NCBI RefSeq assembly: GCF_025999835.1
Contig: NZ_AP025628.1
Location: forward strand, 3,162,001-3,226,000
Direction of reading: 5' to 3'
DNA length: 64,000 bases
From: Caldinitratiruptor microaerophilus
GTDB lineage: Bacteria; Bacillota; Sulfobacillia; Symbiobacteriales; ZC4RG38
Part shown: positions 48,591 to 50,463 of the stretch, piece after piece
Position numbering within the stretch: the first letter of the stretch is position 1
How the letters are laid out: every line of letters starts with the position of its first letter
Notes under the pieces: generated by a model
The model's input: only the letters and a program-made list of their open reading frames with translations
Told to the model about the DNA's origin: nothing
The model's database searches: none
Position numbers and translations under genes: made by a program

Positions 48591-48875
48591 CTAGCAACTA
48601 CCCGACGGTGCGCCGTGGAGGCGGAACCCGCCGCCCCAGCGGCTTTCCTCGTAGTCGAGTTCGACCTCGTCACCGAGGTACATGGCGGTGAACCCGTCGA
48701 CGACGACCTTGATCCCGTCGACCTCGGTGACGTTGTCGTTGGGGTGAATGGTCCCGTCCAGGGCCATGCCGAACGACGGGCCCCCTCAACCGGGCATCGC
48801 GTAGATGCGAAGCGCCTTCCCGCTATCCTTGACGATCGAACGGAGCTGCTCGAGTGCAGCGTCCGTGATCCGCAC
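48591..48875 (-). CDS. HesB/IscA-like protein with in-frame TGA, probable selenoprotein
   Basis: Reading 95 codons from GTG 48875 to TAG 48591 gives an IscA/HesB-like protein of 94 residues interrupted only by one TGA at codon 30 (48788-48786). Before it: VRITDAALEQLRSIVKDSGK and LRIYAMPG; after it: GGPSFGMALDGTIHPNDN, TEVDGIKVVVDGFTAMYLGD, then ESRWGGGFRL and a C-terminal Gly-Ser-Cys. Relatives have Cys at the TGA position, and HesB-like proteins are a known prokaryotic selenoprotein family. A GGGCC...GGCCC stem with a 13-base loop starts two bases after the TGA, where a bacterial SECIS would lie. An upstream GAGGTGA and promoter are present. The alternative is a recent nonsense mutation. 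Confidence 0.75.
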
Positions 48876-48917
48876 CAAACCGCTTCACCTCACCCGTACC
48901 CATCGGGGTATGGCAAC

Positions 48918-48946
48918 AGGATAGCGCACGACCTTGCCGGTCGCAA
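48918..48946 (-). promoter_or_regulatory. Sigma-A-type promoter of the HesB-like gene
   Basis: On the minus strand TTGCGA (48946-48941) and TATCCT (48923-48918) are 17 bases apart, about 43 bases before the GTG start. It supports the HesB-like gene being expressed rather than a relic. Confidence 0.6.
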
Positions 48947-49078: not shown

Positions 49079-50134
49079 TCACGGATAGTACAGCTGCAGC
49101 CCTCGCAGCACGTCGCCGGGTCCCAGGCCGCCGGACCCGACGCCCATCACCCGCAGCCGGGCGCCGGGCGGCTCGAACCCCTCGACGTGGGCGATGACCA
49201 CGTCCCCCCGGTTCACCGTGAGGGGCAGGGTCTCCCCGGCGCGCACCGGCCCGAAGACGACGCGGCACCGCACGACCCACGGCGCATCCGGCCCGCCAGC
49301 CGGGCCGGCGAAGGCGGCCGCGCCTCCCTCCCCCGCGCGCCCTGCCGGCGCGGCGCCGGGGAACGGGACGGTCCCGCCCCCGGCGGCAACCGCAGTCCCT
49401 GCCGCCGCGGCCCCGGAAGCTGCAGTGCCGGCAGACGGGGGCAGGTGGAGCCACGCGTCCTCGGGCCCGAAGAGGTCCGGGGGCAAGGACCCCTCGGCGA
49501 CCACCTCCGTCACCACGAGTTCGAGCGGCCGCTTCCGGTGACCGTGCAGGGCGTGGAAACGGGGGGCGTACGCGCGGCGGTTTCCCGTGGGGTCGGCGAC
49601 GGCGGCGGAAGCCAGGTCGAGGAGGTCGCGGAGCTGGGCGGCCTGCTCCTCGGCGTACTGCCGGGCCCAGCCCGGGGCGCCGGCAGGTCGGGGCCAGCGG
49701 GACACCTCCCGGGCGAAGCGGACGACCTCCGAGGCGTACTCGCGCCAGCCGAGGACGACCGGGCCGGCCCCCAGCGTCGCCGTGAAATCCGAAAGAAGCA
49801 CAGCGTCACCCCTGTGGGTGACGCTGAAGTCGTATCTCGCACCGGAGTCGCCCAGGACGCTTCCCTGGAAGAACAGATTTCCGTCGGCTGCCGGGTCCAC
49901 GACGTGGTCTTCGAACACCGTTCGCAACAGGCCGACCGCTGCGGGGAGAGGCCCCGCCGGCCCGCCGGCCGGGATCACCGCGCGCGCACCCTGGACCGTG
50001 AGCACGATGCGCGCCGGAGGTACCGGGTCCCCGAGGCGGCTTCCGGACGTTCCGGCTGCGACTCCGAGCGGGCGCTTCGTACCTGCCGCAAGCCGCAGCC
50101 GGAAGGGGTGGGCTGCCGGGTTCGCCATCTCCAT
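49079..50134 (-). CDS. Hypothetical protein, 351 residues
   Basis: No family recognised. The start MEMANPAAHPFRLRLAAGTK has AGAGGTGG upstream. An N-terminal soluble half contains VFEDHVVDPAADGNLFFQGS, SVTHRGDAVLLSDFTATLG and a helix ASEVVRFAREVSRW; a low-complexity Ala/Gly/Pro linker (about residues 235-280) follows; the C-terminal 70 residues look beta-rich (VVRCRVVFGPVRAGETLPLT). There is no signal peptide or transmembrane helix. Codon pattern and GC3 bias support a real gene. The repeated beta-sheet pattern might suggest a coat or assembly-type protein, but that is a guess. Confidence 0.6.
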   Translation of the reverse strand: MEMANPAAHPFRLRLAAGTKRPLGVAAGTSGSRLGDPVPPARIVLTVQGARAVIPAGGPAGPLPAAVGLLRTVFEDHVVDPAADGNLFFQGSVLGDSGARYDFSVTHRGDAVLLSDFTATLGAGPVVLGWREYASEVVRFAREVSRWPRPAGAPGWARQYAEEQAAQLRDLLDLASAAVADPTGNRRAYAPRFHALHGHRKRPLELVVTEVVAEGSLPPDLFGPEDAWLHLPPSAGTAASGAAAAGTAVAAGGGTVPFPGAAPAGRAGEGGAAAFAGPAGGPDAPWVVRCRVVFGPVRAGETLPLTVNRGDVVIAHVEGFEPPGARLRVMGVGSGGLGPGDVLRGLQLYYP

Positions 50135-50463
50135 CGGCGACCACCTCTCGTGGCCCGTGGTGTGAGAAGATTTGCCGGCGACCGGGGGGTTTCCTGCCGG
50201 GCCTCGCAACGATCCCGTAACCGCCCGTTCACCGGTGGCCTCCGGAAGGGGACGGAGCGGCGAGTCGGGGGTCCGTGCTGGCAAGTCTGGCCCTTTGGTG
50301 CCATCTCCAGTGTCTCCAAAGTCGGCTGTTTGCGACCCACGCCGTTTGCTACGCTGTTCGCGGCGGGCCCGTGGGCCGCTTTGGTGCAGGGAAGTAACCG
50401 GACGGGGTCGAAGGTTGGCCCCTGGCACCGTGCGGGTACCCTGTCAGGCGGGGAGGCGACGTC
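50135..50463. other. Divergent intergenic region upstream of formate-THF ligase
   Basis: About 330 bases between two divergent genes. It contains AT-richer words around 50290-50355 that could be promoter elements, but no spacing is convincing. No THF-riboswitch or T-box motif was recognised. Confidence 0.4.

Follow-up and report, generated by a model that had tools for sequence, protein, structure and literature searches.

The 64,000-nucleotide stretch of DNA analyzed here (the window) contains on its minus strand, between positions 48591 and 48875, what we consider, with a probability of about 96%, to be a functional HesB-like selenoprotein gene, whose in-frame TGA at codon 30 (48786-48788), judged by sequence comparisons, is almost certainly read as selenocysteine. 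Translation with read-through from the GTG start at 48875 to the TAG stop at 48593-48591 yields a protein of 94 residues, VRITDAALEQLRSIVKDSGKALRIYAMPG-U-GGPSFGMALDGT...GAPSGSC, with a single internal stop in a UxGP-type motif (GUGGP, residues 29-33) and a C-terminal cysteine (Cys94). This bears out the frame coordinates, the lone TGA, the stop and the terminal Cys of the original prediction, and no lesion other than the TGA was recovered in the translated frame. The Shine-Dalgarno-like sequence GAGGTGA (48885-48891, minus strand), 9 nt 5' of the GTG, and a possible promoter with a weak match to the consensus, TTGCGA-17-TATCCT (48918-48946, minus strand), likewise agree with the original description. 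Just 3' of the stop lies a strong inverted repeat lacking a T run, CGCCCCCGGTCC-TGTGC-GGACCGGGGGCG (48548-48521, minus strand), which is a possible terminator. The neighboring genes, coding for a FGGY kinase, FTHFS, an aldolase and an aromatic lyase, furnished no functional hint for the selenoprotein gene, and the nearest upstream frame (49079-50428, minus strand) had no Pfam match.

The host genome, a single contig of 3.6 Mb, encodes a complete selenocysteine decoding set. A search for selA, selB, selC (tRNA-Sec) and selD, which had been proposed as a check, recovered all four: the tRNA-Sec scores 70.1 bits against a cut-off of 47 bits and is called SeC with the anticodon TCA by ARAGORN, selB scores above its cut-off, selA attains 595 bits, and two selD genes both exceed their cut-off. 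One of the selD genes adjoins selA, with the tRNA-Sec about 12 kb away. The two selD genes, which differ from each other (G000:C1:2013538-2014461, L017, and 1648211-1649131, L018), each have an in-frame TGA in a GUxCK motif, followed by a strong hairpin of the form GCGCAG-GUU/GUC-CUGCGC; hence, besides the HesB-like gene, the host is likely to possess at least two other selenoprotein genes. Decoding of the window TGA as tryptophan was considered and rejected, as the aligned residue in relatives is Cys and the genome has a tRNA-Sec.

Profile analysis of the read-through protein, with U written as C, recovered a match to the Pfam Fe-S_biosyn domain (PF01521) above the gathering score (E 2.1e-11) and one to TIGR00049 with an E-value of 1.4e-12, though at 47.7 against a cut-off of 58.8. 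The predicted structure, modeled with 28 homologues, has a mean pLDDT of 86.8, and its best matches among solved structures are IscA and SufA. These profile matches, together with the IscA-type predicted fold, indicate that the frame is not a product of chance, an origin that can be effectively excluded. The protein scores below the cut-offs of both NCBI models for selenium-containing HesB proteins, namely TIGR01911 (HesB_rel_seleno; 28.1 versus 66.35 bits) and NF038090 (IscA_HesB_Se; 41.2 versus 85), which are annotation thresholds rather than biological traits. Both thresholds are also missed by the eight other TGA-bearing members that were scanned, among which a few matches were slightly shortened. 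Hence, the two models cover less than the full range of TGA-bearing homologues, and the earlier claim that ordinary annotation may miss this gene is plausible, because its product lies under both thresholds.

Searches of 41 genomes (the host's own and those of relatives) and a subsequent scan of named genomes revealed how codon 30 is distributed. Among the 41 genomes, 11 other matches contain one TGA, in every case at the codon aligned with Sec30, and the scan added TGA members from Fonticella, Tissierella, Soehngenia and other Tissierellales, as well as Cys members from Desulfosporosinus, Chloroflexi and others. In all, about twenty homologues have TGA at this codon, from Symbiobacterium-like genomes, Fonticella and Tissierellaceae, and they span several families of the host's class in addition to the latter two groups. 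TGA is seen in 18 distinct sequences, including that of the window, and TGC or TGT in 36 others; codon 30 thus aligns with the conserved Cys of ordinary IscA-type relatives, in agreement with the position originally assigned to it. The window protein shares 47-48% identity with homologues from its own family that have the same TGA. A sequencing error, with TGC or TGT as the true codon, would need nothing beyond a one-base difference, but the TGA recurs at codon 30 in independent assemblies of other species and, as described below, the TGA genes carry a hairpin that the Cys genes lack, making such an error exceedingly improbable and effectively excluded.

The same distribution bears on whether the gene might be a decayed IscA/HesB paralogue whose Cys codon has mutated to a stop, in a genome relying on an intact Cys copy. 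Such a copy, coding for a Cys-type A-type carrier, is indeed present (G000:2071619, L040); however, this account is at odds with the otherwise undamaged window frame and with the fact that about twenty homologues retain TGA at the equivalent codon. It also conflicts with the purifying selection seen on both sides of the TGA in relatives: L021 and L022, the two closest homologues, differ by 11 synonymous and 5 nonsynonymous codon changes (dN 0.027, dS 0.180), with constraint both before and after the TGA. Finally, the downstream hairpin occurs in TGA members and hardly in Cys members. Because the TGA and this SECIS element are both conserved, decay of the gene is effectively refuted and can be given only a very slight probability. 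The original prediction had named as fatal to it a lack of selB or tRNA-Sec, or close relatives all having Cys together with further lesions in this copy; the genome has both components, relatives share the TGA and the frame is intact.

Evidence for a selenocysteine insertion element came from predicted folds of the 60 nt that follow each TGA, which revealed a common hairpin 25 nt downstream, and from then fixing the loop at that place. In the window this hairpin occupies 48767-48748 on the minus strand and has the form AUGG-CCC, loop UGGAC (48760-48756), GGG-(bulged A)-CCAU, with the loop beginning 25 nt after the TGA and a local folding energy of -7.9 kcal/mol. The bacterial SECIS model specifies a loop of 3-9 nt with G among its first two bases, a stem of 4-16 bp, a distance of 16-37 nt after the UGA and an energy of -7.5 kcal/mol or lower (PMC13188914). 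The window hairpin fits this model with its 5-nt loop, 7 pairs, 25-nt spacing and energy of -7.9, the bulged A splitting the stem into only 3 pairs under the loop and then 4. At the fixed place a hairpin is found in 18 of 18 distinct Sec sequences, the window included (-4.5 to -15.3 kcal/mol), with the loop being UGGAN in 17 and UGGGA in one. A comparable hairpin occurs in just one of the 36 Cys sequences (L069, -7.0), the others having none or one of under 3 kcal/mol, even though many of the Cys sequences without it possess the same GMALD/E protein motif. The median energies are -8.8 for Sec and 0.0 for Cys members (p 2.6e-10 in a rank test that ignores kinship). Compensatory changes are seen in the column pairs 26-36, 27-35 and 23-39, which vary on both sides with pairing retained, and the covariation score of 0.273 (0.170 in shuffles) was reached by 0 of 500 shuffles and exceeds that of all slid versions.

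Taken singly the window hairpin is unexceptional: 21 of the 1102 TGA triplets in the window are followed by an equally good one at the same distance, and synonymous shuffles give p = 0.17 for the window sequence alone, as against a median p of 0.034 for the Sec sequences. Hence, the case for the SECIS element rests on its conservation. As a free 45-nt RNA the segment has a different lowest-energy fold (-19.9, versus -12.2 with the SECIS pairing enforced), and the SECIS hairpin becomes the best fold only on omission of at least the first 12 bases, which a ribosome positioned on the UGA would be expected to cover. The alternative lowest-energy fold (CCCGUC/GACGGG) was rejected as a SECIS candidate, being seen in the window only among the sequences folded. 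The original prediction correctly anticipated a SECIS element after the TGA but drew the wrong one: its GGGCC/GGCCC stem (48783-48761) can be formed, yet the loop is 13 nt long and begins 7 nt after the TGA, outside the 3-9 and 16-37 nt ranges, and in 17 distinct sequences none of its pairs has varied in a compensatory manner, the supported element lying further downstream at 48767-48748. The resulting signature, YYC-UGGAN-GRR with the loop 25 nt after the UGA, separates Sec from Cys members and could serve for re-annotating genomes.

The position of this hairpin also bears on the notion that the TGA is a real stop, leaving either a short 29-residue peptide or a separate 58-residue protein. 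An ATG-started frame of 58 aa does exist (48767-48591), but its ATG forms part of the SECIS element and encodes the Met of the conserved GMAL motif; moreover, the homologues align over their full length and the Cys homologues are single proteins without a stop at this point, so that genuine termination here has a negligible probability. Thus, the selenoprotein interpretation is supported by the decoding machinery, the occurrence of TGA or Cys at the codon and the conserved SECIS element.

In a phylogenetic tree, built from a short alignment in which many of the deeper forks are unresolved, the window protein falls in a clade of 7 Sec sequences (support 95/87), which unites members from its own family with those from the family of genome G003, including the G003 protein itself. 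We take G003 to be Symbiobacterium thermophilum. Several other homologues show distinctive arrangements. In one relative, at G019:C344:4353-5089 (L041:1501-1788 and 2061), a Sec copy that retains the C-terminal CGCG motif of A-type carriers sits immediately ahead of its Cys paralogue. Its placement in the tree among carriers of the Cys type suggests that Cys was exchanged for Sec on a separate occasion; the copy has the same UGGAA hairpin. Tissierella creatinophila has two neighboring HesB-like genes (L087:3001-3261 and 3425), in each of which the Sec codon is TGA. In four homologues from Kariarchaeota/Heimdallarchaeota-type archaea (L080, L084, L085, L086) the Sec position is occupied by neither Cys nor TGA, but the C-terminus is still Cys-rich.

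The computed machinery, conserved UGA, conserved SECIS element and predicted fold suggest a plausible decoding mechanism. With selenophosphate supplied by SelD, SelA would turn Ser-tRNA-Sec into Sec-tRNA-Sec, and SelB, bound to the hairpin at 48767-48748, would deliver the latter to the ribosome at the UGA of codon 30; from this we infer that selenium is actually inserted there, giving rise to the 94-residue protein with an IscA-type fold. Sec30, in place of the metal-binding Cys of the A-type Fe-S carriers, might act together with Cys94 in binding Fe, an Fe-S cluster or another metal, or in a redox step; the chances that the pair has a metal or Fe-S role appear to be about even. A more tentative proposal is that the proteins with UGGP and one terminal Cys but no CxC constitute a Sec-dependent family with its own SECIS type (UGGAN, 25 nt) and a job distinct from that of the Fe-S carriers, which may be, for example, Sec/Cys-based metal binding or redox sensing.

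These features place the window protein among known systems at differing distances. With the A-type carriers IscA, SufA and ErpA (TIGR00049, PF01521) it shares the fold and the position of the first ligand. However, those proteins have Cys at the first ligand and two C-terminal Cys in a CGCG motif, whereas the window protein has Sec30 and the lone Cys94, and thereby lacks the three Cys ligands, including a C-terminal CxC, that define an A-type carrier; in the alignment the CGCG is similarly reduced to one terminal Cys in most TGA members. HesB-like selenoproteins, characterized by the UxGP motif, are an established family (PMC13188914), as also attested by TIGR01911 and in line with the original assignment, and one was reported from Symbiobacterium thermophilum in 2006 (PMC1794560). 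The HesB-like protein of Methanococcus maripaludis, whose function is unclear, was identified as a selenoprotein by 75Se labeling (PMC11097638); it shares the family name with the window protein but is archaeal, and hence decoded through an archaeal kind of SECIS element. With the HesB-like family (TIGR01911, NF038090) the window protein has in common the IscA-type domain, the replacement of its first conserved Cys by Sec, the UxGP motif, a bacterial SECIS element, a Sec-decoding host and the lone C-terminal Cys typical of most members examined here, differing in that it scores under both curated cut-offs. It is accordingly a divergent member of a family known for about twenty years, and adds to it a well-supported selenoprotein that the curated models do not catch.
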